From Halopelagius longus (lineage in GTDB: Archaea > Halobacteriota > Halobacteria > Halobacteriales > Haloferacaceae): DNA of 64,000 bases. Made by a program: the position numbers and the translations under genes. Positions 7,456 through 47,930 of this stretch are shown piece by piece; the first letter of the stretch is position 1, and every line of letters starts with the position of its first letter. The notes beneath the pieces are model-generated. The model did not search any database and was not told the DNA's origin. It worked only from the letters and a program-made list of their open reading frames with translations. The stretch is from positions 186,001 to 250,000 of the forward strand of contig NZ_FNKQ01000005.1 in NCBI RefSeq assembly GCF_900100875.1, given 5' to 3'.

Positions 7456-8125
7456 TCGTTCGCCGATGGCGAACGGGGGTCGGGCCGCCCCCAGATGTAC
7501 GCTGCGTTCGTGGTGCTTGGTGTCAATCTACACGTTCACGCCTCCCCGGCGGGTGGTAGAGAGACGGCTACCGTCCCCTATCGTTCACTAATAGTTAACG
7601 AGGCGGCGGACCCCGGTCGAATCGGAACCGAGCGTCACCGTTCTCCATTACGCTCCTACATCTGTAACGCTACGCGTATGGGCCGTTCGCTGGGACGTGG
7701 CGTCGGAGCGTCCTTCAGCGGCAGAGAGGTAATCTTGTACTATTTGTCCACGATAGCGGAACCCTTATGATAGATTTCCGCATACATATTCCGTGGCCGA
7801 GAGACCGAGAACTATACCGTGAGGCGTCGGTTAGACGCATCTTCCAGAGTCCGAGGCAATTTCTTCCGCAATCCCGCCGAGAAATGAGATACGGAGTCGT
7901 CAACTAGACGGCCGTAGCGGCCTCTTCACCGGTGAATTCGCCGTCCTTACACTAGGCCATCGTTCCTTCGTTTTCTGCGTCGAGTGAGTCGTGTATAGAA
8001 ATTTTGTATTCGGACAATACCATCTGGGTCGGCGACGTGGGCGAATCGGAGAATTTCAGCGCCGCGGAATGTGTCACGATAGTACGAGATGGAAGTTAAG
8101 CGCGTCGAGCCGAAACTACCCGAGG
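7456..8125. other. 670-bp intergenic region, no gene supported
   Basis: This gap has lower GC than its surroundings and only short open frames that lack haloarchaeal amino-acid bias. It presumably carries the terminator of iclR and the promoter of the aldehyde dehydrogenase operon. Possible TATA-like stretches occur around 7736-7748 and 7993-8010, but neither sits at the leaderless distance from the gene start. Confidence 0.4.
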
Positions 8126-9487
8126 ATGGAAGCCGTCAATCCCGCGACCGGCGAGGAGGTAGAGACGTACGAGACGCAGACGGAGGAGGACGTAGACGAC
8201 GCCCTCGACAGGGCGACGGACGCGTTCGACGAGTGGCGAGCGCGTCCGCTCCGCGAACGCGAGGAGTTGCTGGAGGCGGCGGGCGACGTGCTTCGGGAGA
8301 ACAAGCGCGAGTACGCCGAAACGATGACCCGCGAGATGGGCAAGCCCATCACCCAAGCGGTGTCGGAAGTCGAGAAGTGCGCGTGGGCGTGCGACCACTA
8401 CGCGGAACACGCCAGCGCGTACCTCCAACCCGAGCACCACCCGAGTCCCTCGGGATCGACGGTCAAGACCGTCTACGAGCCCATCGGACCGGTGCTCGCG
8501 GTCATGCCGTGGAACTTCCCCTTCTGGCAGGTGTTCCGGTTCGCCGCGCCGTACGTGACGGCGGGGAACGTCGGCCTGTTGAAGCACGCATCGAACGTGC
8601 CGGGGTGTGCGAAGGCCATCGAGGACGTGTTCCGCGAGGCGGGCTACCCCGAGGACGTCTTCCAGTCGCTTCTGATTCCCTCGGACCTCGTGGACGACAT
8701 CGTCGAAGACGACCGGGTCCGAGCCGCGACGCTCACGGGAAGCGGACCGGCGGGCCGCGCAGTCGCCGCCACCGCCGGGGAGAACCTCAAGAAGACCGTC
8801 CTCGAACTCGGCGGGAGCGACCCCTACGTCGTCTTGGACGACGCCGACCTCGACGCCGCCGTCGAAACCGGCGCGTGGGCGCGCAACCAGAACGGCGGCC
8901 AGTCCTGCATCGCCGCCAAGCGCTTCGTCGTCCACGAGGCCGTCTACGACGACTTCCTCGACCGGTTCGTCGAGGAGATAGACTCCTACGTCGTCGGCGA
9001 CCCGATGGACGAGGAGACGGACGTCGGCCCGCAGGCCAAACCGAGCCTGATGGACGAACTCCACGAACAGGTCGAAGAGAGCGTCGAAGCGGGCGCGAAC
9101 GTCGCCCTCGGCGGCGAACCGATGGACCGCGAAGGAGCGTTCTACCCGCCGACGGTCCTGACCGACGTGCCCGAAGGGTGCCCCGCCGACACCGAGGAGG
9201 TGTTCGGCCCGGTCGCGACCGTCTACGAGGTGTCCGACGAAGAGGAGGCCGTCGAGAAGGCCAACGACACCCAGTTCGGCCTCGGCGCGAGCGTCTGGAC
9301 CGAGGACCGCGAACGCGGAGAACGCCTCGCCCGGCAGATAAACGCCGGATGCGTCTACGTCAACCAGTTGGTGAAGTCCGACCCCCGCGTGCCGTTCGGC
9401 GGCGTCAAGGAGTCGGGCTACGGGCGCGAACTCTCCGAGGTCGGAATCAAGGAGTTCCTCAACGAGAAGACGGTGTGGGTCGAATGA
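8126..9487 (+). CDS. GabD-type aldehyde dehydrogenase (succinate-semialdehyde dehydrogenase-like)
   Basis: A 453-residue NAD(P)-dependent aldehyde dehydrogenase of the short GabD1 subgroup. It has the catalytic cysteine C261 ([10 protein letters not shown]), the general base E227 (LELGGSDP), PWNFPFWQ and the C-terminal [14 protein letters not shown]. The start at 8126 gives the normal N-terminus ([10 protein letters not shown]); the open frame begins further upstream but adds unrelated sequence. The stop overlaps the next start as ATGA, so the two genes are translationally coupled. Succinate semialdehyde is the family's usual substrate, but the neighbouring TPP enzyme suggests an aldehyde formed by decarboxylation of a 2-oxo acid. 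The exact substrate is not readable from sequence. Confidence 0.9.
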
Positions 9488-11064
9488 AGGCATCCGACCT
9501 GTTCGTCGAGTGCCTCGAACGGGAGGGCGTCGAACACGTTTTCGGCATCCCCGGCGAGGAGACGGAGGACCTCCTGTTTTCGCTCCGCGACTCGGACGTG
9601 ACGTTCGTCCCGGTCCGGCACGAACAGGGGGCCGCGTTCATGGCCGACGTGCACGGCCGGTTGACGGGCGAGGCGGGCGTCTGCCTCTCGACGCTCGGCC
9701 CGGGCGCGACCAACCTGCTGACGGGCGTCGCCGACGCCCACCGCGACAAGAGTCCGCTGGTGGCCGTCACCGCCCAGGGCGGACTCGAACGACTCCACAA
9801 GGAGAGCCACCAAGCCCTCAACGTCGTCAGAATCTACGAGTCGGTGACGAAGTGGAACACCCAACTGGACGACCCGGGCATCATCCACGAGTCGGTCCGC
9901 AAGGCGTTCAAGGTCGCCGAGTACGAGAAGCCCGGCGCGACGCACCTCGAACTCCCCGAGGACGTGGCGGCCGAAGAGACGGACGCGCGTCCGCTTCCCG
10001 TCCGGGAGGACGTCCGCTTCGCCGCCCCCGACGCCGACACCCTCGACCGGGTGAAGGAGTTGCTCCGGGAGGCGGACCGACCGCTGATAATCGCCGGTAA
10101 CGGCGCGGTCCGGACGCACGCGGCGTCGCAACTCCGCGAACTGGTGCGCGTCACGGACCTCCCGGTCGCGTCGACGTACATGGGCAAAGGCGCGGTGTCG
10201 GACGCCGACGAGCACTCGCTGATGACGCTCGATTCGGGCGCGGACGGCGAGGCCGCAAGCGCCATCGAACAGTCGGACCTCGTGCTGACGGTGGGCTACG
10301 ACATCGCCGAGCACGACCCGGCGAAGTGGGGGCGGAGCGACACCCCCGTCGTCCACGTCGACACCGAACCCGCGGAGGTGTACGAGGCGTACAACCCCGC
10401 AGTGGAGGTTGTCGCGGACATCGGCCGAACGCTCGAAGAACTCGCCGAGTGGTGCGGGGCCGGCGAGTTGGGGTTCGACCCCGACTGGTACGCCGACCTG
10501 CGCGAACGCATCGTCGAGGACGTAACCGTCGAACCCGCGGAGTCGGCGCCGTTCACCGTTCGGGGGGTGCTCCCCCTCCTGCGGGAGGCGATGGACCCCG
10601 AGGACGTTCTCGTCTCGGACGTGGGGAGCCACAAGATGGCGATAGCGCAGAACTTCCCGACGTACGAGCCGAACACCTGCATCGTCTCGAACGGCCTCGC
10701 CTCGATGGGGATTTCGGTCCCCGGCGGCGTCGCCGCGGACCTCGCGACGGACGGAAACGTCGTCGCCGCGACGGGCGACGGCGGGTTCCTGATGAACGCC
10801 GCCGAGATAGAGACGGCGACCCGAATCGGCTGTGAGTTCACCATCGTCGTGTTCGTAGACGACGACTACGGCCTCATCTCCGAGAAGCAACGCGACCACA
10901 CCGGTGAATCGTTCGGAACCGGGTTAGGCAACCCCGACCTGGTTCCCTTCGCCGAGAGTTTCGGAATCGACGGCTACCGACCGCAGTCGCGGGCGGAACT
11001 CGAAGCGGCCATCGAGGAAGCAGTGGGCGGCGACATGTCGCTGATAGCGGTCGACGTGGAGTGA
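9484..11064 (+). CDS. TPP-dependent enzyme of the acetolactate synthase family
   Basis: A 526-residue thiamine-diphosphate enzyme with the three-domain ALS/pyruvate-oxidase layout: the N-terminal PYR domain carries the proton-relay glutamate E47 (RHEQGAAFMAD), a middle domain follows, and the C-terminal PP domain has the GDGGFLMN diphosphate motif. The usual WND of catabolic acetolactate synthases is replaced by VDDDYG, so the second metal-ligand position is Asp rather than Asn. There is no regulatory-subunit gene nearby, which argues against a biosynthetic AHAS. It overlaps the aldehyde dehydrogenase gene by 4 bp. It could be an acetolactate synthase or a 2-oxo acid decarboxylase feeding that enzyme. 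Confidence 0.87.
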   Translation: MKASDLFVECLEREGVEHVFGIPGEETEDLLFSLRDSDVTFVPVRHEQGAAFMADVHGRLTGEAGVCLSTLGPGATNLLTGVADAHRDKSPLVAVTAQGGLERLHKESHQALNVVRIYESVTKWNTQLDDPGIIHESVRKAFKVAEYEKPGATHLELPEDVAAEETDARPLPVREDVRFAAPDADTLDRVKELLREADRPLIIAGNGAVRTHAASQLRELVRVTDLPVASTYMGKGAVSDADEHSLMTLDSGADGEAASAIEQSDLVLTVGYDIAEHDPAKWGRSDTPVVHVDTEPAEVYEAYNPAVEVVADIGRTLEELAEWCGAGELGFDPDWYADLRERIVEDVTVEPAESAPFTVRGVLPLLREAMDPEDVLVSDVGSHKMAIAQNFPTYEPNTCIVSNGLASMGISVPGGVAADLATDGNVVAATGDGGFLMNAAEIETATRIGCEFTIVVFVDDDYGLISEKQRDHTGESFGTGLGNPDLVPFAESFGIDGYRPQSRAELEAAIEEAVGGDMSLIAVDVE

Positions 11065-35794: not shown

Positions 35795-37123
35795 CTACTC
35801 CGAGAGCGCGTCGCCGGTCGTCCGACACGCGTTCGGAATCGCCTCGGCGACGTGTCGCTGGGCGACGTAGGTCGCGATTTCGCGCCGGACCCACCGGGCT
35901 CGAATCGCGTCGTCGTCGCCGTCGTCGCCCGGGGTGAGTTCGTCGTCCGCGCGGGAGAGGCGGGCGACGACCTTCGGTAGTTCGACGCCCGTCAAGAGCG
36001 GATAGTCGTCGGTCGCTCGCGCCGCCTCGACAGCCTCGACGGCGGCGGTGCGGTACGCCGCCACGTCGCCGGTCGACTCGACCGGGAACGACTCGCCGTC
36101 GGCCACTCGGTCCCGCAGCGTTCGGAACGCCTCGACGCCCGCGAGAAGCCTGTGCATTCGAATCACCGCCGCCGCCGGACGTTCGCCCTCGTACCGGTAG
36201 TTCCGAGCGTCTCGGGCCTCTCCGTAGAGGTCGTCCAGCGCCATCCCGGCGACGGTGTCCTCGATGTCGCGTTCGACGAACGTCGGTCGCTCGCCGTCCG
36301 TCTCGCGCGGAACGTCGTCGAGCGCCTCGCTCAGCCGACCGCCGAGCGTCGCTATCGCGCGTTCGAGTCGGTTATCGAGAGGTCGCGGTTCGTCGAGCGA
36401 GTCGGTGAATCGGTCGTAGACGTGGTTCGCGACGGCGACGTTCGCTCGGGCGCGTTCGACCGCGGCCGCCGTCTCGCCGACGGCGAGGGGGTTGTCGGCG
36501 TCGTACCGCCGTTGGGGTCCGGAGTTCAGATCGAGTTCGCTGTCGGCCCGTGCGACGCGGTGTTCGAACTCCTCGTGGACGAGTACCGCGCGGACGGGGT
36601 CGGAGCCGACGTACTCCCGTCGGTCGGTGAACGCCGAGAGGTCCTCGCGAACCGACGAAGCGCGCTCGGCCACCGCCGCCCGCGTCAGGTCCTCGTCTAT
36701 CGCGCGCCACGCGCCGCGGAGATTCGCCGCGTGTTCGCGGGCGTCCACCGCGGCGTCGAGGCGTTCGTACGAGGACGCGGCGGCCGTCGCCCTATCGAGT
36801 GCGTCCTCGGCACTCGTCCGTTCGTGCGCCATCTCCTCGCGGATGGCCCCGTTGGGCACCTCTTCGGAACCCAACGGGTCGGGGACGGAGTCGAGTGCGG
36901 CCCGCGCCCGGGCGACGTTCTCGTCGACGAACGCCGTCGAGATATCGACCGGGAACGTCCGGGAAGCGTCGGGGAACTCCCCGCTCGCGACCGTCCGGAG
37001 CTTCGACCTGTCGAGTTCGGGGCCGGAGTCTCCCCGGCCGACGCCGAGTTCGGAGCACCCCGCGAGGAAGGTGCTCCCGAACAACGCGAGCGCACCCCGT
37101 CGGGTGGTGTCGAAGTCGCTCAT
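35795..37123 (-). CDS. Alpha-helical Tat lipoprotein, unrecognised
   Basis: 442 residues. Residues 1-25 have a twin-arginine motif (TTRRGALAL) and a lipobox (LAGC). The rest is rich in Ala, Arg, Glu and Asp and predicted to be almost all helical (DALDRATAAASSYERLDAAV and similar stretches), with no domain I can name. The start at 37123 gives the signal sequence; the frame is open further upstream but without it. It overlaps the upstream lipoprotein gene by 4 bp. Confidence 0.8.
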   Translation of the reverse strand: MSDFDTTRRGALALFGSTFLAGCSELGVGRGDSGPELDRSKLRTVASGEFPDASRTFPVDISTAFVDENVARARAALDSVPDPLGSEEVPNGAIREEMAHERTSAEDALDRATAAASSYERLDAAVDAREHAANLRGAWRAIDEDLTRAAVAERASSVREDLSAFTDRREYVGSDPVRAVLVHEEFEHRVARADSELDLNSGPQRRYDADNPLAVGETAAAVERARANVAVANHVYDRFTDSLDEPRPLDNRLERAIATLGGRLSEALDDVPRETDGERPTFVERDIEDTVAGMALDDLYGEARDARNYRYEGERPAAAVIRMHRLLAGVEAFRTLRDRVADGESFPVESTGDVAAYRTAAVEAVEAARATDDYPLLTGVELPKVVARLSRADDELTPGDDGDDDAIRARWVRREIATYVAQRHVAEAIPNACRTTGDALSE

Positions 37124-37821
37124 CGCTCCGCCTCCGCGGTGGCGTCGCCGCGGTCGGTTCCGTCGCCCGCAGTCGCGGGGGCCGAGTCGTTCCCGGAGTC
37201 GCCCCCGCCGGAGTCGTTCACCGGTCGTCCGTCGGGGAGGCGACACCCGCCACTCCCGTATGTGGACGCGTAACTCCGTATCTCGTCGGGGTCGACGGTG
37301 TCCGGGACGCGGACGAACCACGCGACGGTGTCGTTCGCGTCGGGTTCGCAGGCGACGTCGGCGTCGCGGTAGCGACGCACGTAACTCGTTCGTATCTCCG
37401 CGTCGGACCACTGGACGTAACAGAACTCCCGTCGGTAACACTCGCCGACGGTCGACTGCTCGATGTAGACCGTCTCGGCGTCGTAATCGGTCGCATCGAG
37501 GAACTCGCGGGCCGCCTCGACCTCCGCGCCGTCGGTCGAAAACGACAGGGAGTCGGCCGCCTCGGCGTCGGTGACGAACGCGTTGTCCAGTCCGATTCCG
37601 TCGGCCGCCTCGGCGTCCGTCGTCTCGGTCGAACCGGTCCGGACGACGGGGTTCTCGCCGGACACCCGGAGGGAGTAGGTGTCGGCGTCGGTCGAAATCT
37701 CGCCGTTCGCGTCTGAGGAGTGGGAGCCCGCCGACCCGTTGTTCGTACCGGAACATCCGGCGAGGCAAGCGAGGATACCGGCGACTCCGTGGAGGGCACG
37801 CCGTCGTGTCAGGGGACGCAT
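37120..37821 (-). CDS. Small Tat lipoprotein, unrecognised
   Basis: 233 residues with a twin-arginine motif (LTRRRALHG), a lipobox (CLAGC) and an acidic linker. The mature domain (about 50-195) has four cysteines (GECYRREFC, VACEP, GGCRL) that could form two disulfides. The C-terminal 35 residues are disordered. It is first of a likely three-gene unit with the helical lipoprotein and the membrane protein that follow. Confidence 0.8.
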   Translation of the reverse strand: MRPLTRRRALHGVAGILACLAGCSGTNNGSAGSHSSDANGEISTDADTYSLRVSGENPVVRTGSTETTDAEAADGIGLDNAFVTDAEAADSLSFSTDGAEVEAAREFLDATDYDAETVYIEQSTVGECYRREFCYVQWSDAEIRTSYVRRYRDADVACEPDANDTVAWFVRVPDTVDPDEIRSYASTYGSGGCRLPDGRPVNDSGGGDSGNDSAPATAGDGTDRGDATAEAER

Positions 37822-39881: not shown

Positions 39882-42218
39882 TCAGTTTCCGCCCAGCACC
39901 CGTTTGAACAGCGTGAAGGTGAGGAGGGTAAAGAGCAGGCCGTTCAACATCCCTTGGCTCGCCGCCAGCAGTTTGGCCCCGCCGCCGAGCGGATTGATGT
40001 CGCCGTACCCGACCGTACTGAAGCTGATGTAACTGTAGTAGACGGTGTCGAAGAGGACCTGTGCCGCCGACTTGTCGACGAGGCCGGGCGCGAACACGCT
40101 TCCGGCCTGCGTCAGGAACGGGCCGCCGAGGGCGTACACCAGACCGAACAGCATCGGCGAGAGGAAGGTGAGCGCGGCGATTCGGGGGAGCCGGTTGCCG
40201 TACCCGCAGGTCACCTGCATGATGAGGTTGAGGACGACGCTGGCCGCCTTCTTCCCGCGCGCCCAGACGTTCAGCGAGTACTCGTTGAGGAGGATGTCGA
40301 GGTTCTTCCGCCGGTTGTAGTAGTAGCGTTTGAACTCGAACTCCCTGCTTGCGGGCGTGTCGCCGACGGCGTCGGCGCTGTCCTGCGCCTTCCGGTACGT
40401 CTCCTCGATGATTTCGTCGGTCATCTCGACGGCGAACTGTCCGGTGGCCTCGTTGCCGACGAAGTCGTGAATCGTCCAGTCGTTGCGTTCGAGGTACGCG
40501 TGGTGGTTGCTGAAGTCGAAGTGGTCGAAGTCGGTGAGACAGAACCGGAAGTGGTCGAGCAGTTCGTGCTCGTTGCCCTCGCCTTCCAGTTGGAGGTTGC
40601 CGAGCGTCGCCCGCGTGAAGTCGTACGGCGTGGCGTCGCCGGTGACTTGCGCTATCGTGCCGCCGTTTATCGTCGCGTCGGTGAGGTCGATGTACGTATC
40701 GCGTTCGCCGCCGAGCAGGCGGAACTTCGCCGTCTCGTGGAACACCGCGCGTCGGAAGTTACAGCGCTCGTGGAACGTGGCGTCCCAAAACGAGACGTTC
40801 GTGAAGTTGGCCGACTCGAACACGGCGTCATCGCGGAACGTCGCCTCCTTGAACGACGCGTTCTCCTCTAAGTGTCGCGTCTTCCCCTCGAACACCGCCC
40901 CGCGGAACTCCGCCGGGCCGTAGAACGTCGCCTCGCGGAAGCTCGCGTCCTCGTTGAACCGCGCTTCGTCGAAGCGCGTCCGGGCGTCGAACGCGACGTC
41001 GTCGAACGTCACGTCGCCGTCGAACTCGGCCTCGACGGCGACGACGGCGTCGCCGAACCGGCTCCCGTCGAAGACGGTTTCCCCGTCGAACGCCGCGCCG
41101 GTGAGTTCGAGCTCGCCGGAGACGTCCAGACGGTGACAGTCCGCGCGCGCGGTGAACGTCGCGCGGTCGAAGTTGAGCGGCCCTTTGAACGTCGCGTCCT
41201 TGAAGTCGGCGTACCGGAAGCGGGCCAACTTGTAGTCGGCTTCCTCCTCGAACACCGCCCCCTCGAACGTCACGTCGTCGCTCGTCGTCCGACTGCCGCC
41301 GTTGAACTCGACGCCGCGGAACTCGGCCAGTCGCATGAACCGCGCGTCCTCGAAGCTCACGTCGTCGTCGAACCGGGCCTCGTCGAAGTCGGCGACCTGT
41401 TGGAACGTGGCGGCGTCGAACCGCGCGTCGCCGCCGAACACCGCGTGTTCGAAGTCGGAACCAGCGGTGAACTGCGCCCCCTCGAAGGTGACGTAGTCGA
41501 ACGTCGCCTGCCGGAAACTGGCGTCGTCGCGGAACGTCGCGTCGGCGAAGGAGACGTGGTCGTCGAGGACGTGACTGCTACCGCTCGTTTCCGCGTTCCG
41601 GAAGTGGACCTGACCGTGGAACGTCGCCTCGGCGAAGCTCGTATCGCTTCGGAACGTCGTCTCGTCGCAGTTCACGTCGCCGTGGAACACCGCGCCGTCG
41701 AATCGGACGTCCTGTTGGAACGTCGCCTCCGCCGTCGTGACCCCCTCCCGCACCGTCAGGTCGTCCGCCTCCACGACGCCCGTGACGACGGCGTCCTCGA
41801 ACTTGAGGCGGCCGACGGTCGCCTCCCGGAGGATGAGCCCTTGGTCGAGGCGGCCGTGCGTGAGGTCGATGCCCTCGATGTCCGCGTGCTGGAAGTTGAG
41901 GACGTGGTTCGTCGAGCCGTTGACGTCCTGATAGGTGAGCGAGAGGTGCGGCAGGTCCGCACCGACGTACTCGTTGACCCGCGTGTCCGGAGATTCGAGG
42001 TTCTCCCGGAGGTCCTCGAGGATGTCGTCAGCCGTCACGTCGTGTGCGGCGCGTTCGTCTCGACTCATGTGGAAGACGCAGTACTCGCTCTCGGGGTGGG
42101 CTTCGTGCGGGCACTCCCACGTCGCTTGGAGTCGGGCGTCCGTCCGCGTGGAGGGGTCGAAGCGGTACCGGCAGTTCGACGACGACTTCGGCGTGGGGAG
42201 GGATTCGTTTCTCGACAT
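39882..42218 (-). CDS. Pentapeptide-repeat protein fused to a two-helix potassium channel
   Basis: 778 residues in three parts. The N-terminus has a Cys/His set (CRYR, ECPHEAHPESEYCVFH) likely to bind zinc. Residues about 80-530 are pentapeptide-like repeats (A(D/N)(L/F)XX and FXX(A)XF units such as ATFRDDASF and ARFDDDVSF) that fold into a right-handed beta-helix. The C-terminus has TM1 (about 679-702), a pore with the potassium selectivity filter TVGYGD (735-740) and TM2 (about 750-772). So a beta-helix is placed on the cytosolic side of a channel pore; the long N-terminus before TM1 has no signal peptide. It is the last gene of the minus-strand cluster, 144 bp after the zinc-ribbon gene. 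Confidence 0.9.
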   Translation of the reverse strand: MSRNESLPTPKSSSNCRYRFDPSTRTDARLQATWECPHEAHPESEYCVFHMSRDERAAHDVTADDILEDLRENLESPDTRVNEYVGADLPHLSLTYQDVNGSTNHVLNFQHADIEGIDLTHGRLDQGLILREATVGRLKFEDAVVTGVVEADDLTVREGVTTAEATFQQDVRFDGAVFHGDVNCDETTFRSDTSFAEATFHGQVHFRNAETSGSSHVLDDHVSFADATFRDDASFRQATFDYVTFEGAQFTAGSDFEHAVFGGDARFDAATFQQVADFDEARFDDDVSFEDARFMRLAEFRGVEFNGGSRTTSDDVTFEGAVFEEEADYKLARFRYADFKDATFKGPLNFDRATFTARADCHRLDVSGELELTGAAFDGETVFDGSRFGDAVVAVEAEFDGDVTFDDVAFDARTRFDEARFNEDASFREATFYGPAEFRGAVFEGKTRHLEENASFKEATFRDDAVFESANFTNVSFWDATFHERCNFRRAVFHETAKFRLLGGERDTYIDLTDATINGGTIAQVTGDATPYDFTRATLGNLQLEGEGNEHELLDHFRFCLTDFDHFDFSNHHAYLERNDWTIHDFVGNEATGQFAVEMTDEIIEETYRKAQDSADAVGDTPASREFEFKRYYYNRRKNLDILLNEYSLNVWARGKKAASVVLNLIMQVTCGYGNRLPRIAALTFLSPMLFGLVYALGGPFLTQAGSVFAPGLVDKSAAQVLFDTVYYSYISFSTVGYGDINPLGGGAKLLAASQGMLNGLLFTLLTFTLFKRVLGGN

Positions 42219-42362
42219 GGCTATGGCGTCACCGTCCTCCCTCCCGCGCGAGGCGATTCGACGGGGGAGGGGGTTCGTCTGTTCACGTATTTCATACGTT
42301 CTGTCATATAGTTTCGGTACCCGTTCGGGCGTCGCATCCGACGGAGTCGGTCGGTGCGGCGG

Positions 42363-43319
42363 TCAATCGAGCACCGACCGGCGTTCCTCCGGCGAGAGTT
42401 CTGCGTGGACGGCGTTGGGCGAACAGTGCTCGCACTCGCAGGCGGGGTTGGTGCTCCGGTCGTACGTCCACACCGGGTAGCCGAACAGGAAGAACGCCTC
42501 CATCTGGTGGCGTTCGATGACCGCATCGGCCGCCTGCCCGCAGTTCGGGCACCACTCCTCGTCGTCGGTCGGTTCCTGAAACGTCACCTTCCGACGGCCG
42601 AACCCCGCGTTCGAGTACGCCTCCGACCGCGACATCTCGACGAGGTCCTCGGCGGGGTACGGGGCCGCGTCGATTTCGTTGTCGAAGCCGGTTTCGGAGG
42701 CGACGTCGGCCGAGAGATACGGTCCGACGCGGACGGTGTTGTCGTAGCCGACGAAGTGGACCGTCACGTCGGCGTCTCGGCCTTCGACGCGAACGTCGTG
42801 ACCGTGGCCGACGAGGTACAGTTCGAGGTTCCGCCGCGCCTTCGTCAGTTCGATTTCGTGGTCCATGCCGACGGCGTAGACGCCCGTCGTGGGGTCCGTC
42901 GCCGTCGCGGACTGCCGCCACCCGACGGTCGAAACGTCGTACTCCTCGGGGGAGGCGGTCGGCGAAACGTCGTCGGCGTAGACGTTCTCGGCGCCCGGCG
43001 CGGAGAACTCGCCCTCGGCGGCCTCGGCGGCGACGAACACGTCCTCGGCGTCGGTGACGACCACGTCGCCGTCAACCTGTTCGACGTAGCCGTCTTCGAG
43101 GCTGCCGCCGATGGTGGTCTCGGCATCGCCGCGTTCGTCGGGCCGTTCGACGTCGATTGACTGGTGGGTGAACACGTACTCCGCGTTGCGGACGGCGAAG
43201 TCGCCGCCGACGCTGTTCGTCGTCACGAACACGTCCGCCGGGTCGAGTAGTTCGACGGGCGGTCGTTCCGAACCGTTGAGCGTTACGTCGCCGTCGTAGG
43301 TCGTGGTGTCGTCTGTCAT
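42363..43319 (-). CDS. Beta-repeat protein with C-terminal zinc ribbon, unrecognised
   Basis: 318 residues. The N-terminal part repeats a beta-strand-like unit (DPADVFVTTNSVGGDFAVRN and DAEDVFVAAEAAEGEFSAPG), followed by a stretch suggesting a solenoid (NLELYLVGHGHDVRVEGRDA and following). The C-terminus has a zinc ribbon: C257 and C260 (CPNCG), then C294, C296 and C299 (CECEHC). I do not recognise the family. It overlaps the DUF2617 gene by 4 bp, so the two are co-translated. Confidence 0.75.
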   Translation of the reverse strand: MTDDTTTYDGDVTLNGSERPPVELLDPADVFVTTNSVGGDFAVRNAEYVFTHQSIDVERPDERGDAETTIGGSLEDGYVEQVDGDVVVTDAEDVFVAAEAAEGEFSAPGAENVYADDVSPTASPEEYDVSTVGWRQSATATDPTTGVYAVGMDHEIELTKARRNLELYLVGHGHDVRVEGRDADVTVHFVGYDNTVRVGPYLSADVASETGFDNEIDAAPYPAEDLVEMSRSEAYSNAGFGRRKVTFQEPTDDEEWCPNCGQAADAVIERHQMEAFFLFGYPVWTYDRSTNPACECEHCSPNAVHAELSPEERRSVLD

Positions 43320-43852
43320 GGATGGGTTTCAGTCGCGTTCCGCGTCGGGTCGTCGAGTCGTTCGGACCGCGCCGGCGACCGGCGGACGGTCAGTCGCGTC
43401 TCGGTGTGAAGCGCCAGTTCGTGTTCGGGGTAGGTGTGGTACGTCTCGTAGCCCGTCGCGCCGACCGAGATGGTCGTCCACGCCTCCGGGGCGAACCGGT
43501 AGGCGACCGTCGCCTCGTCCGGGCCGGAGAACGCGTCTAGGGGCCGGCCGGTGACGGTCGTCGTCGCGTTGAGGCGGTCGCCGCGGAACCGGAACTCCCG
43601 TTCGACGCCGACCGAGAGCGGCGTCTCGTGCGTCGGTTCGGCCGACAGCGGCCTGCACGAACAGAGTTCGTGGAAACCGAGCGACGGGAGGCCGACGTAG
43701 TGCGACTCGCCGATTACCGTGAACGCGGCCGGGCGGCCGAGGAGTTCGTCGGGGTGGACCGCCTTCACGTCGAGGCGGTCGAAGTCGGGGCGAGTCCCGG
43801 CGTACGCGAAGTACAGTTCGGAGGGAGCGTCGGAGTGGGTGTCTGGGGACAT
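43316..43852 (-). CDS. DUF2617-family protein
   Basis: 178 residues, from the ATG at 43852, which lies 2 bp after the stop of the synthase-like gene. It has the family's N-terminal AYAGTRPDFDRLDVKAV, AFTVIGESHYV and the characteristic C-terminal GYETYHTYPEHELALHTETRL (compare bacterial WHxYPxxxELV). No catalytic residue is known for the family. In bacteria, DUF2617 genes lie beside membrane spermidine-synthase-like genes, as here. A longer open frame runs over this gene, but the segment upstream of 43852 is the reverse of the neighbouring gene's code. Confidence 0.75.
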   Translation of the reverse strand: MSPDTHSDAPSELYFAYAGTRPDFDRLDVKAVHPDELLGRPAAFTVIGESHYVGLPSLGFHELCSCRPLSAEPTHETPLSVGVEREFRFRGDRLNATTTVTGRPLDAFSGPDEATVAYRFAPEAWTTISVGATGYETYHTYPEHELALHTETRLTVRRSPARSERLDDPTRNATETHP

Positions 43853-43854
43853 GA

Positions 43855-45612
43855 TCAGGTGTCGACGAGGATGTCGTAGTTGGGATGGAAGATGGAGTTC
43901 ACCCGCACGCCGTTGTAGCGGGGGACTGGACGCCACCGGGCGTCTCGATAGCGGTCGGAGTACCGCCGAACGTAGTCGGTCCCGTCGGCGACGGGGAGGG
44001 ACCGACGCTCGCCGGGGGCGAAGACGTAGAACCGCTCGACGCGTTCGACGTCGCCGTCGGAGTCTATGTCCTCCACCGCCCAGTAGGGGAGTTGCCGAGT
44101 GAAGCCGGCGGCTCCGACCGTGTTGAGGAACGCCTTGTTGTGTTCGGGGTAGTCGTCCGGCGAGTACGCCCACGTCACTACCACGCCGTCCTCCGAGAGG
44201 TGGCGGCGGACCGACCGATAGAACTCCTCGGAGTACAGCGTCAGGAGGTCGTCGTCCGTCGCTCCGGGGACGTCGAGGAGGACGAGGTCGTACGTCTCGT
44301 TCGTCTGCTGGAGGTAGCGGTAGCCGTCGCCGACGGTCACGTTCAGGCGGTCGTACCGGTAGGCGTCGTCGTGCCACCGTCGGAAGAACGAGTCGTTCTT
44401 CGTCCGGTTCATGAACCGAGCGTCGAGGTCGACCTGGTCGACGGTCACGTCGTACTGCCGGAGGTGGTCGACGGCGACCCAGTCGCCGCCGCCGACGACG
44501 AGTACCTTGGTCTCGGGGCCGCGTTCGAACAGCGACATCGGCACGTCCACGAGGCCGTTGTGGTAGCTGTCGGCCCAACTATCGCACATCTGCACCGCCG
44601 AGTCGAGACGGAGACACCGCTCCGAGCGACCGGTGAAGTGCGGGTTCGGTCCGCTTCCGGTCCACGTGCGCCGGTATCGGACGACGTGTTGGTACTTCGT
44701 CGTCTCCTGCGACGTGACTTCCGCGCGCATCGTACCCGGCCGGTACTCGTCTTCTATCTGCTGTTCGAGGTAGAGTTCGGACAGTCGGTCGTCCACCGTC
44801 TCGTGGTTGACCACGGCGCCCGCGTACGTCGCGGTCAAGAGTAGGCAGACGACGAGCAACGCCTTCGGAACGCGGCCGACGAGGGGCGTGGACGCCGCGA
44901 ACGGCGTCGGCGACCAGCCGCCGAATCGGACGACGAAGACGAGCGCCGCGAGGCCGTTGAGCAACGCGAGCACGAATATGGTCGGGATGAGTCCCAACCC
45001 CGGGTACAGCAGTTTCGCGTAGACGATGGCCCCGAACAGGCCGCCGACGTAGTCCATCGCCAGCACGACGGAGAGACCGCTCCGACGCCCGTCGTTGCGT
45101 TCGACGGTCCAGACGACGCCGAGACAGCGAACGGTCGCGTCGTGGAGGCGGCGTCCGAACCGGCGAAGCCGCGCCGGCGTCACCGCGTCCTCTTCGCCGA
45201 GTTCGTCCACCAAGTAGGTCAAGAGCGGAAGCTCGAACCCCGAGAGGAATCCGACGACGACGACGGGGAGGCGCGCCGCGAGCCATATCAGCTCCGACGG
45301 AACCGCTTGGGGGATGCGGACGCTGTTGAGGGCGACGATTAGCAGAAACCCCGCCGGGGCGGCCGCGGCTAGGAGCACCTCGGTCCTGAAGAAGTTCTCT
45401 CCGTGTTCGTCTGCGTTCAGGTCGTCCGAGAGCGCCGCGCCGATGCCGAGGCTGAAGAAGTACAGCCCGACGGTGATGACGTACTGGGTCACCGTCCCGC
45501 CGTACATCACGGTCAGCAGTTCGGAGTAGACGAACTCGTACGCGAAGCTGCAGAACGACACGACGAACGTGAGTGCGAGGAGGGTGAGCGTCTCGGTTCG
45601 TGTATTCGACAT
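43855..45612 (-). CDS. Membrane-anchored spermidine-synthase-like protein
   Basis: 585 residues. The N-terminal half (about 8-250) has seven or so membrane helices with SFCSFAYEFVYSELLTVMYGGTV, typical of SpeE-like membrane proteins. The C-terminal half is a Rossmann methyltransferase-like domain: VVGGGDW (about 366-373), VDLD, GDGYRYL and LVLLDVPG. In true spermidine synthases the GGGDG glycine is followed by different residues and the catalytic loop is DSSD-like; here it is LDVPG, so the reaction may differ. Haloarchaea have few polyamines, which supports another substrate. It precedes DUF2617 by 2 bp. Confidence 0.88.
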   Translation of the reverse strand: MSNTRTETLTLLALTFVVSFCSFAYEFVYSELLTVMYGGTVTQYVITVGLYFFSLGIGAALSDDLNADEHGENFFRTEVLLAAAAPAGFLLIVALNSVRIPQAVPSELIWLAARLPVVVVGFLSGFELPLLTYLVDELGEEDAVTPARLRRFGRRLHDATVRCLGVVWTVERNDGRRSGLSVVLAMDYVGGLFGAIVYAKLLYPGLGLIPTIFVLALLNGLAALVFVVRFGGWSPTPFAASTPLVGRVPKALLVVCLLLTATYAGAVVNHETVDDRLSELYLEQQIEDEYRPGTMRAEVTSQETTKYQHVVRYRRTWTGSGPNPHFTGRSERCLRLDSAVQMCDSWADSYHNGLVDVPMSLFERGPETKVLVVGGGDWVAVDHLRQYDVTVDQVDLDARFMNRTKNDSFFRRWHDDAYRYDRLNVTVGDGYRYLQQTNETYDLVLLDVPGATDDDLLTLYSEEFYRSVRRHLSEDGVVVTWAYSPDDYPEHNKAFLNTVGAAGFTRQLPYWAVEDIDSDGDVERVERFYVFAPGERRSLPVADGTDYVRRYSDRYRDARWRPVPRYNGVRVNSIFHPNYDILVDT

Positions 45613-45675
45613 GGAGGGTGTATCGGGGACGTGCTGGTCGCGGCTCTCGTCGGGAGGCGCTTGGGCGTCGCTACC

Positions 45676-46368
45676 TCAGATTCGCGGCGACACCTTCCAC
45701 TCCTCCTCGATGCTGTACTCCCCGTCGGTCGAACTGTCGATTTCGAGGTCGTACGACTCCCACCGGAAGTTGTGGTTGTTCTCGGAGCCGACTATCTTGG
45801 CACCGACGCGGTACCACCCGTCGGCGGCCTGCCCGTTCGTGACGTCGTACTTCACCGTATCGTCCGGGTTTCGGAACGTCTTGTCCCACGGAACCGCGCC
45901 GGGGCCCGGCGCGTCGTCCCGGAACTGCGACGTGGTCCCGAGATACGCGACGCCGAGTGCGGCGATTCCGACGGGGTATCGAGACACCTCGTCGCCGTGG
46001 TTCTCGTACCAGTCGTCGGCGTAGTCGCCGCCGTGGTACCACGCGTACCCGTGTCTCGTTCGCGGGGCCGAGGAGTACCCGCCGTTACCGCGGCCGGACG
46101 CGCCGCGGCCGCCGCCACCGCCGCTCTTTCCTTTGGCGCTGGCGACGCCGACGGGGTTCAGCCCGCCGAGCGACTGTTGCTGTGACTCTTCGTACCTGGA
46201 CATGACCCACGTGTCGTCTGCGGCGTCGATGACGAGCGACGTGTCGCTCATCTCGAAGCTCGATATGACGTTCGACTTCCGCGGGGGAGGGGACTTACTA
46301 CCGAGGCATCCGCTCAGGGCGGTGAGCGCTCCGAGGCCGGAGCCGACGATAAATTGGCGGCGACGCAT
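45676..46368 (-). CDS. Tat lipoprotein, unrecognised, first gene of cluster
   Basis: 230 residues with a twin-arginine motif (MRRRQFIVG) and a lipobox (LSGC). After a short beta-like region (FEMSDTSLVIDAADDTWVMSRY) comes a Gly/Arg-rich linker (GGGGGRGASGRGNGGYSS), then an outward domain with HGYAWYHGGDY and WENH-like aromatic stretches. It might be related to the DUF4247 lipoproteins of bacterial clusters with the same neighbours, but I cannot confirm this by reading. It leads the minus-strand cluster, 63 bp ahead of the synthase-like gene. Confidence 0.75.
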   Translation of the reverse strand: MRRRQFIVGSGLGALTALSGCLGSKSPPPRKSNVISSFEMSDTSLVIDAADDTWVMSRYEESQQQSLGGLNPVGVASAKGKSGGGGGRGASGRGNGGYSSAPRTRHGYAWYHGGDYADDWYENHGDEVSRYPVGIAALGVAYLGTTSQFRDDAPGPGAVPWDKTFRNPDDTVKYDVTNGQAADGWYRVGAKIVGSENNHNFRWESYDLEIDSSTDGEYSIEEEWKVSPRI

Positions 46369-46521: not shown

Positions 46522-47052
46522 TCAGAGGTCGTAGCCCCACTCGCGCAGAATCTCCTCGGCGTCGTCGAGGTGGGCCATTCCGGCGAGGTAGATGGCCTCC
46601 CGGGCGTCGGTTCGCGACAGTCCCTCGCCGAGTCGCTTCTCCAACGTTCGCTCGGCGTCCACCGCCTCTTCGTGCGTCTCGCGTTGGACGAACAGCTGGT
46701 GGACCTCCGGGCGTTCGTCTTTGACCTTCTCGCGGCGAAGGATGAAGGGGAGTTCGTCGCGGGAGAGGCCGCCGTCGCCCTCGTCGCCGTCCGACGACGG
46801 AGCGTCCGCCTCGGAGTTCGTCGCCTCGCTACCCCGCGCGGCGTCGTCGCGCGTCGCGGTATCTCGCGTCGCGGCGTCCGGCGTCTCGGCGTCCCGCACG
46901 TCGCCCGTGGACGCACCCGTCCCCGAGGAGTCGCTCATCGCCTCGTCGGCGTCGGATTCGGGAGTCGCCGCCGCGTCGTTCGCCTCGGGGGGTGATTCGG
47001 CTTCATCCTCCGCGTCGTCGTCCGCGAACGGGTCCGAAGCGCCGGACTTCAT
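46522..47052 (-). CDS. Acidic partner protein of ParA, candidate centromere-binding protein
   Basis: 176 residues. The first 100 are acidic and disordered (Ala/Asp/Thr/Glu-rich). The last 75 form a helical domain (KDERPEVHQLFVQRETHEEAVDAERTLEKRLGEGLSRTDAREAIYLAGMAHLDDAEEILREWGYDL); its basic helix and position right after ParA suit a small partner that binds the DNA site and ParA. The start ATG at 47052 overlaps the ParA stop by 4 bp. No ParB motif is seen. I cannot prove DNA binding. Confidence 0.72.
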   Translation of the reverse strand: MKSGASDPFADDDAEDEAESPPEANDAAATPESDADEAMSDSSGTGASTGDVRDAETPDAATRDTATRDDAARGSEATNSEADAPSSDGDEGDGGLSRDELPFILRREKVKDERPEVHQLFVQRETHEEAVDAERTLEKRLGEGLSRTDAREAIYLAGMAHLDDAEEILREWGYDL

Positions 47053-47930
47053 ACGACTACCTCGCGTTCGTCGTCGGTCAGGTCGTCCTCGGTGAGTTCG
47101 ACGCCGTACTGCCCGGCGACGAAGCGGGCGAGTTCGTCGAACGCCCGCAGGGTGTCGTGTTCTCGCTCCGCGCGCTTGTTGTTCGAGACGAACTCGAACG
47201 CCGTCGTCTGGGCGTCCCACGCGCCGTTCAGCATCGCCTCGCGGACGGGTATCTTGACCGGAGAGACCGGGTAGTCGAGTTCGTTCAGCGCGGCTTCGTA
47301 CTTGTCGCGCATCCGCGTGCGACGGACCTTGTTCGGCACGACGGCGACGACGCCGACTTCGGTGTCCACCTCCGCTTCGAGGTTCGAGACGGTGTCTTCC
47401 AGCCCGTAGAGCGACTGTTCGCCCTTCGGCGAGAGTTCGAGCGGGATGACGACGTTCCCGGTGGCGGCGACGGCGTTGTAGACGTGCTGACCGCCGGTCG
47501 CCGGGGGGTCGACGACGACGACGTCGTACTCGTCGGGGACGCCGGAGTCTCCGATGACGCGGCGCAGTTGGAGTTCCTTGACGAACCGACCGCCCATGTC
47601 CTGCTCCATCTCCTGGGCTCGCTGGAGGTTCGTCTCCAGGCTATCGAGCATGTTGTGACTCGGAATCACGTGCAGGCCGTGCGTCGTCTCGCGGACGAGG
47701 TCCGAGAACTCCCCCTTCGGCCGGTCGATGAGGTGACGAACGAGGTTGTCCACGTCGGGGTCGGCCCGTTCGTCGTCGACGCCGAGGTGGTGGCTCGCGC
47801 CGCCATTCTGCGGGTCGAGGTCCACGAGGAGCGTCTTCTGCCCGTGCCGCCGGTGGGCCGCGGCGAGGTTGACCGCGAGCGCGGTTTTCCCCACCCCGCC
47901 CGCCTCACTCCAGAGCGCGTACGATATCAT
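47049..47930 (-). CDS. ParA-family ATPase with altered Walker A motif
   Basis: 293 residues of the ParA/MinD ATPase family, which move DNA or cargo by ATP-driven surface patterns. The Walker A region reads EAGGVGKT (residues 9-16), so the signature lysine of the deviant KGGxGKT motif is alanine at residue 10. The other marks stand: D37 and D39 in LLVDLDPQNGG and a Walker B VVVVDPPATGG. The start ATG at 47930 fits the first strand. Long open frames upstream run into the repeat array and are not genes. It is coupled to the acidic partner downstream and has two 13-bp repeat arrays upstream. Confidence 0.9.
   Translation of the reverse strand: MISYALWSEAGGVGKTALAVNLAAAHRRHGQKTLLVDLDPQNGGASHHLGVDDERADPDVDNLVRHLIDRPKGEFSDLVRETTHGLHVIPSHNMLDSLETNLQRAQEMEQDMGGRFVKELQLRRVIGDSGVPDEYDVVVVDPPATGGQHVYNAVAATGNVVIPLELSPKGEQSLYGLEDTVSNLEAEVDTEVGVVAVVPNKVRRTRMRDKYEAALNELDYPVSPVKIPVREAMLNGAWDAQTTAFEFVSNNKRAEREHDTLRAFDELARFVAGQYGVELTEDDLTDDEREVVV

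Follow-up and report, generated by a model that had tools for sequence, protein, structure and literature searches.

DUF2617, a probable AdoMet decarboxylase homologue, lies beside a membrane SpeE homologue in a conserved haloarchaeal gene cassette

We analysed a stretch of haloarchaeal DNA from Halopelagius longus (64,000 nucleotides of a contig of 288 kb, NZ_FNKQ01000005.1; hereafter the window) and read in it a five-gene cassette at positions 39882-46368 on the minus strand. The cassette encodes a lipoprotein, a membrane-bound homologue of the aminopropyltransferase SpeE, the small protein DUF2617, a beta-repeat protein with a zinc ribbon, and a K+ channel fused to pentapeptide repeats (Table 1). 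An earlier note on this DNA had described five genes on one strand, three of them tightly packed, and this held: 2 bp separate the SpeE stop from the start of DUF2617, whose gene in turn shares 4 bp (ATGA) with the zinc-ribbon gene.

Table 1. Genes and selected residues of the cassette, in window coordinates (aa, amino acids; TM, transmembrane; Tat, twin-arginine translocation; Ig, immunoglobulin).
Feature	Position	Strand	Remarks
Lipoprotein, 230 aa	46368-45676	minus	Tat-like signal; lipobox LSGC with C21; conserved PPPRKS; Gly-rich linker; predicted Ig/FN3-like beta sandwich
Membrane SpeE-like aminopropyltransferase homologue, 585 aa	45612-43855	minus	seven TM-like segments, then SpeE domain
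SpeE GGGD, residues 374-377	44493-44482	minus	
SpeE catalytic-type Asp D447	44274-44272	minus	
DUF2617, 178 aa	43852-43316	minus	PF10936 23 bits, barely above cut-off; two-lobed, very probable AdoMet-decarboxylase homologue
DUF2617 S50, predicted pyruvoyl serine	43705-43703	minus	matches human S68
DUF2617 C66	43657-43655	minus	matches human C82
DUF2617 T126	43477-43475	minus	matches human S229; Thr in place of Ser
DUF2617 H139	43438-43436	minus	matches human H243
Beta-repeat protein with C-terminal zinc ribbon, 318 aa	43319-42363	minus	DUF3060 and Zn_ribbon_15 matches, alignment
Pentapeptide-repeat domain fused to C-terminal 2-TM K+ channel, 778 aa	42218-39882	minus	Pentapeptide_3 6e-59; Ion_trans_2 9e-10
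K+ channel filter TVGYGD, residues 735-740	40016-39999	minus	T735, G737, Y738, G739 invariant in 19 sequences

We surveyed 391 Halobacteria genomes for the cassette. PF10936 alone, a Pfam model that is weak for the haloarchaeal clade, detected DUF2617 in 30 of them, and a profile of the membrane SpeE gave matches in 59 (about one in seven) with E far below 1e-100. The lipoprotein profile returned the same genomes as the SpeE profile, plus some weak hits to signal peptides and a handful of copies that were partial or stood alone. Our own profiles of the five families were run on all reading frames of 59 fetched loci, one of which ends at a contig edge. The order and strand of lipoprotein, SpeE and DUF2617 were kept in every complete locus (58/58); the zinc-ribbon gene adjoined this trio in 57/58, in some of them shortened or split, and the channel gene in 54/58. 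The zinc-ribbon and channel genes took seven arrangements: downstream on the same strand (24 loci), zinc-ribbon gene divergent upstream (14), swapped (8), convergent (6), both divergent upstream (1), no zinc-ribbon gene (1) and no channel (4). Genes flanking the cassette were common to small groups of loci only. The persistence of the group through repeated reshuffling favours a functional link over drift. The five-gene set is a conserved but patchy cassette, often located on megaplasmids, and is not there by chance. Scattered orthologues, named beforehand in the earlier note as the outcome that would count against a coherent cassette, were not found in this neighbourhood survey.

A search of a plasmid collection returned 12 relatives, all on haloarchaeal plasmids or megaplasmids (Haloferax larsenii, Halorussus, Haloarcula, Natribaculum and Salinibaculum), a location consistent with horizontal spread of the cassette. 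A ParA-like gene adjoins the cassette in the window (47049-47930, minus strand) and, together with the 288 kb contig, suggests that the replicon is a megaplasmid; in four of the other fetched loci, too, ParA relatives occur no more than 8 kb from the cassette. A channel-less, four-gene form of the cassette was observed in loci L071, L075, L094, L096 and L104, from Haloferax-like plasmids and one other genus; L071 and L104 have an RNase HI-like gene after the cassette where the channel would be. Two more overlapping lipoprotein-like genes lie just beyond the cassette in the window (35795-37821, minus strand) and are not conserved with it.

The earlier note had treated DUF2617 as a protein of unknown kind, a description corrected here by profile searches in both directions, profile-profile alignment with hhalign and an AlphaFold (AF2) model. 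A hidden Markov model (HMM) of archaeal DUF2617 was run against 6,724 open reading frames (ORFs) from 80 bacterial loci with transmembrane SpeE (TM-SpeE); three DUF2617 proteins ranked on top, followed by 16 consecutive proteins of the S-adenosylmethionine (SAM, AdoMet) decarboxylase family SpeD ahead of any unrelated ORF, out of 44 SpeD ORFs in the set. In the opposite direction, a SpeD HMM run against 11,872 haloarchaeal ORFs gave 11 matches, nine of which were DUF2617. Alignment of DUF2617 to six SpeD proteins by hhalign scored 33.0 (P 9e-5); 100 column shuffles reached 23.5 at most, reversing the alignment gave 16.3, and both DUF2617 lobes aligned to the same SpeD core, lobe 1 weakly. The sole match of the DUF2617 profile in the PDB was Aquifex SpeD (2iii; E 0.25, or 0.23 with 53 sequences). 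When 53 members were scanned singly, four matched AdoMet_dc weakly (best 8.2e-4) and none exceeded the cut-off of the SpeD family PF02675 (class 1b).

The AF2 model of DUF2617 (pLDDT 90.3, pTM 0.81) consists of two similar beta units. Upon realignment to 999 PDB chains (VIA), its six best matches were all AdoMet decarboxylases (AdoMetDC), led by the human class 2 enzyme 1msv at Z 7.7 (137 residues, 3.8 A), a middling value that is not decisive by itself; the T. brucei (Z 6.2, 6.2 and 5.7) and T. maritima (Z 5.1) enzymes followed, and the first unrelated chain scored 4.7. The model shares the two-lobed fold of 1msv and matches the proenzyme over residues 6-155. DUF2617 differs from AdoMetDC and SpeD in being only about 150-180 aa long and nearly all beta, with the outer helices missing; the sequence likeness is visible by profiles only, and the residue before the serine is variable. 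Taking the sequence evidence and the structural match together, we regard DUF2617 as almost certainly homologous to AdoMetDC. Our literature search found no paper naming DUF2617 an AdoMetDC homologue; among the papers found, the one with an analysis of DUF2617 describes it only as a predicted beta-sandwich enzyme (Ravi et al. 2024, PMC11237479).

Lobe 1 of DUF2617 carries the pattern VIGxS50H51...E62...C66 and lobe 2 AxT126...YETYH139TYPE143. S50, H51, E62, C66, T126, H139 and E143 were invariant in 53 archaeal sequences. Three bacterial DUF2617 proteins kept the same residues, save that E143 is replaced by N or Q and that one of them has Y for C66, giving totals of 56/56 for S50, T126 and H139 and 55/56 for C66. 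The human enzyme uses S68 as its pyruvoyl serine, with C82, S229 and H243 as catalytic residues, and its PDB sequences read AYVLSE-S68-SMFVSKRRFILKTC82 and YWTIH243ITPE247PEFSYVSFETN. We take T126 to be the equivalent of S229 by its spacing, 13 residues before the His, the same distance as between S55 and H68 in T. maritima SpeD; human E247, whose position is matched by archaeal E143, binds the SAM ribose. Eukaryotic class 2 AdoMetDC divides its residues in the same way: lobe 1 holds Ser and Cys, lobe 2 holds His and Ser/Thr. From these residues, self-processing of DUF2617 at S50 is predicted and probable.

The SpeE protein of the window matched Pfam Spermine_synth (8e-19), NCBIfam PRK03612 below cut-off (2.7e-63) and, in a PDB profile match of its SpeE domain, solved aminopropyltransferases (7e-22). 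Y350, H351, GGGD377, D395 and D429 of the donor pocket, as well as D447, were invariant in 19 SpeE sequences; their donor-pocket and catalytic roles are assigned by equivalence to ordinary SpeE. The DxxDP motif of ordinary spermidine synthases is replaced in haloarchaeal SpeE by DxPGA(T/R)xD, and a bacterial TM-SpeE (L106) keeps DFPDP. Judged by these motifs, the donor side of the membrane SpeE looks intact and its acceptor side changed. The earlier note's statement that the synthase lacks the standard catalytic loop therefore stands for DxxDP and fails for the donor pocket and D447. Relative to the Thermus SpeE enzymes 1uir and 3anx, the cassette protein has the same donor-binding and catalytic residues but differs in its seven-TM N-terminal domain and in DxPGA for DxxDP. 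We also observed two cysteines, C333 and C343, that are invariant in the haloarchaeal SpeE domain (window 45612-43855) and absent from bacterial L106; a metal or redox site is possible.

Haloferax volcanii encodes a SpeE homologue, HVO_B0357, that shares the GGGD(W/Y) motif (PMC6267482) and seven TM segments, reported for the H. volcanii SpeE homologues (PMC5178350), with the cassette protein; by its GGGD(W/Y) motif, HVO_B0357 is assigned to the cassette type. The genome of the window contains a second SpeE-like membrane protein of 555 aa (L103, G000:C1:392000-410000, ORF 7887-9554, plus strand), which has no cassette partners nearby and is probably of the HVO_0255 type.

Where haloarchaeal SpeE homologues would obtain decarboxylated SAM (dcSAM, dcAdoMet) was asked by Prunetti et al. 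2016 (PMC5178350), who reported no AdoMet decarboxylase in any sequenced halophile, described HVO_B0357 as a SpeE homologue without a known donor, and raised the question of the roles of HVO_0255 and HVO_B0357. In our searches, ordinary SpeD (PF02675) was found in 0/30 cassette genomes, and the same search was positive in 8 of 14 control genomes, two archaea included. Three of these controls, C. glutamicum, H. volcanii and L. lactis, had SpeE without SpeD, and genome-level matches placed DUF2617 in exactly the first two and in no other control. Among the 80 bacterial TM-SpeE loci, SpeD occurred in 44, DUF2617 in 3 and both in none, an exclusivity that is only suggestive (by simple counting, 3 versus 44 without overlap would arise by chance ~9% of the time). 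SpeD accompanies TM-SpeE on annotated plasmids of Novosphingobium (SPFH, DUF4178, DUF350, TM-SpeE, FAD oxidase, SpeD) and Alteromonas, and SpeD reading frames lie near TM-SpeE also in Ensifer and Burkholderia; a tblastn search for DUF2617 neighbours on bacterial plasmids returned haloarchaea and chance matches only. DUF2617 is a candidate dcSAM source for the haloarchaeal SpeE homologues.

Operons associated with the phage shock protein (PSP) system in bacteria have been reported to combine DUF4178, DUF350, PspA or DUF2617 + DUF4247, and a seven-TM SpeE, some with a K+ channel (Ravi et al. 2024, PMC11237479). Three of our bacterial loci show such operons: DUF4178-PspA-DUF2617-DUF4247-TM-SpeE in Candidatus Frackibacter (L123, 4695-8503), DUF4178-DUF2617-DUF4247-TM protein-TM-SpeE in Glycomyces (L166) and DUF2617-DUF4247-DUF350-TM-SpeE in Streptomyces (L187). 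The Frackibacter operon links DUF2617 directly to a PspA system. These loci and the published survey bear out the earlier note's remark that DUF2617 and membrane SpeE are neighbours in bacterial clusters with channels and lipoproteins. In bacteria and haloarchaea alike, a lipoprotein gene clusters with seven-TM SpeE and DUF2617, and some operons add a K+ channel; this supports reading the haloarchaeal cassette as the archaeal counterpart of the bacterial operons. The two differ in that the haloarchaeal lipoprotein appears unrelated (no DUF4247 match) and in that the cassette contains the beta-repeat zinc-ribbon protein and the pentapeptide-K+ channel fusion; the PSP partners DUF350 and PspA were not among its conserved neighbours. 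The operon type is thus known from bacteria, and what is new is the haloarchaeal version with its own lipoprotein, zinc-ribbon protein and pentapeptide channel.

The accessory proteins were characterized by the same means. The lipoprotein had no Pfam match in 19 members, and its invariant residues are G20, C21, P28, P29 and R30. Its AF2 model (mean pLDDT 68.5) is confident over residues 32-57 and 129-229 and gave FN3/Ig-like matches only (Z up to 6.2, not decisive). An identity with DUF4247 was rejected: none of the 19 members matched that family, and the lipoprotein HMM found no relative in the 80 bacterial loci. Lipoprotein-family domains also occur without SpeE or DUF2617, as a solitary gene in L099 (7875-8639) and within longer frames of about 412 aa in L100 (7330-8445) and L101 (7361-8461), where they may be relics or serve a different use. 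Of 15 zinc-ribbon proteins, all matched DUF3060 at an E value of 1 or less (best 4e-5) and six matched Zn_ribbon_15, and C257, C260, C296 and C299 are invariant; an equivalence to DUF4178 was rejected because hhalign gave a 10-residue Zn-knuckle match only. Some channels, including that of the window (42218-39882), carry a zinc-knuckle-like motif (C..C..H..H..C..H; residues 16-50) ahead of the pentapeptide repeats. Channels lie near TM-SpeE genes in 6/80 bacterial loci, and polyamines can block K+ channels.

Since DUF2617 is an AdoMetDC homologue, the cassette may hold both halves of an aminopropyl-transfer pathway, and on balance we favour its interpretation as a mobile, membrane-associated module for SAM decarboxylation and aminopropyl transfer. 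DUF2617 would undergo self-cleavage ahead of S50 to yield a pyruvoyl cofactor and would act as a decarboxylase of SAM; the membrane SpeE would take the resulting dcSAM and move its aminopropyl group to an acceptor other than putrescine, because the DxxDP acceptor motif is lost. This acceptor could plausibly be agmatine or a membrane component. SAM as the substrate of DUF2617, with the product feeding SpeE, seems to us rather likely. The lipoprotein outside the cell, the zinc-ribbon protein and the channel, with its cytosolic pentapeptide domain and K+ pore, may couple this chemistry to envelope sensing and K+ flux. We propose the channel and membrane coupling tentatively; the envelope link is drawn because the bacterial counterparts occur with PspA (our loci; PMC11237479), and the channel link because of co-location in 54/58 haloarchaeal loci and the channels near a few bacterial TM-SpeE genes.

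Several observations weigh against this module. Foldseek alone was weak on the DUF2617 model (best E 0.0076, with AdoMetDC first at rank 11), and the realigned match to 1msv is, as noted, middling. The position ahead of S50 is not conserved, bacterial DUF2617 has N or Q as its counterpart of human E247, and the Cys is missing from one bacterial member. Four loci have no channel, so the channel would not be essential to the chemistry. In minimal medium H. volcanii was reported to contain agmatine and cadaverine only, with neither spermidine nor any further aminopropylated polyamine, and deletion of HVO_B0357 had no phenotype under the conditions tried (PMC5178350). The product may be made only under certain conditions or be bound to lipid, or the substrate may have changed. 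Since AdoMetDC homologues that have switched to ornithine or arginine are known (PMC10407285), SAM is not certain as the DUF2617 substrate.

Such a switch underlies one alternative, in which DUF2617, still a pyruvoyl enzyme of the AdoMetDC superfamily, decarboxylates arginine, ornithine or some other amino acid and the resulting amine, rather than dcSAM, is sensed by SpeE or the channel. SpeD homologues with new functions of this sort occur widely (PMC10407285), the chief polyamine of haloarchaea is agmatine (PMC5178350) and the catalytic set of DUF2617 is conserved. However, DUF2617 stands in the place of SpeD beside TM-SpeE, a dcSAM-requiring enzyme, and arginine decarboxylation in H. volcanii is already served by an essential pyruvoyl enzyme (PMC5178350). 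Given also that archaeal E143 occupies the position of the ribose binder E247, we consider a changed substrate unlikely. Alternatively, DUF2617 and SpeE could be catalytically silent binders of SAM, dcSAM or polyamines that act as sensors setting the K+ channel or an envelope response, as the altered SpeE acceptor motif, the channel and lipoprotein partners (suggestive of signalling) and the absence of a known aminopropylated product in H. volcanii (PMC5178350) would allow. The Ser, Cys and His expected for self-processing and catalysis are invariant, as is the catalytic-type Asp of SpeE, and make this rather improbable.

That TM-SpeE uses SAM directly, for methyl or 3-amino-3-carboxypropyl transfer, with DUF2617 in an unrelated role, would fit the lack of SpeD in all 30 cassette genomes, but the missing step could come from DUF2617, itself an AdoMetDC homologue, and SpeE keeps the GGGD motif typical of dcSAM users; we judge direct use of SAM very unlikely. 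Least credible is the idea that the cassette defends against viruses and that the channel is its effector. The patchy occurrence and the location on plasmids would suit such a role, and PADLOC gave a weak match of SpeE to its mad2 model, yet this match was limited to the SAM-binding part, no other cassette member matched, and the bacterial counterparts sit with PspA, DUF350, DUF4178 and DUF4247 (our loci; PMC11237479). With PADLOC returning a weak SAM-fold match only, an identity as a defence system was rejected.

Beside SpeE, DUF2617 offers a concrete and quickly testable candidate for the donor-source question of Prunetti et al. 2016 (PMC5178350), and its assignment as an AdoMetDC homologue extends to the Pfam family DUF2617 in Actinobacteria, where Corynebacterium glutamicum has DUF2617 and no SpeD. 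It also brings in a protein from prokaryotes that is laid out in two lobes like the class 2 enzyme of eukaryotes; the origin of that enzyme is under debate and is discussed in PMC10407285. More speculatively, and in our estimate doubtful as a whole, DUF2617 may represent a third, prokaryotic two-lobed class of SAM decarboxylase that together with SpeE would make a new aminopropylated molecule at the haloarchaeal membrane, perhaps aminopropyl-agmatine or a lipid head group, and a dedicated K+ channel would be gated by it; such a class may bear on the origin of the class 2 enzymes.

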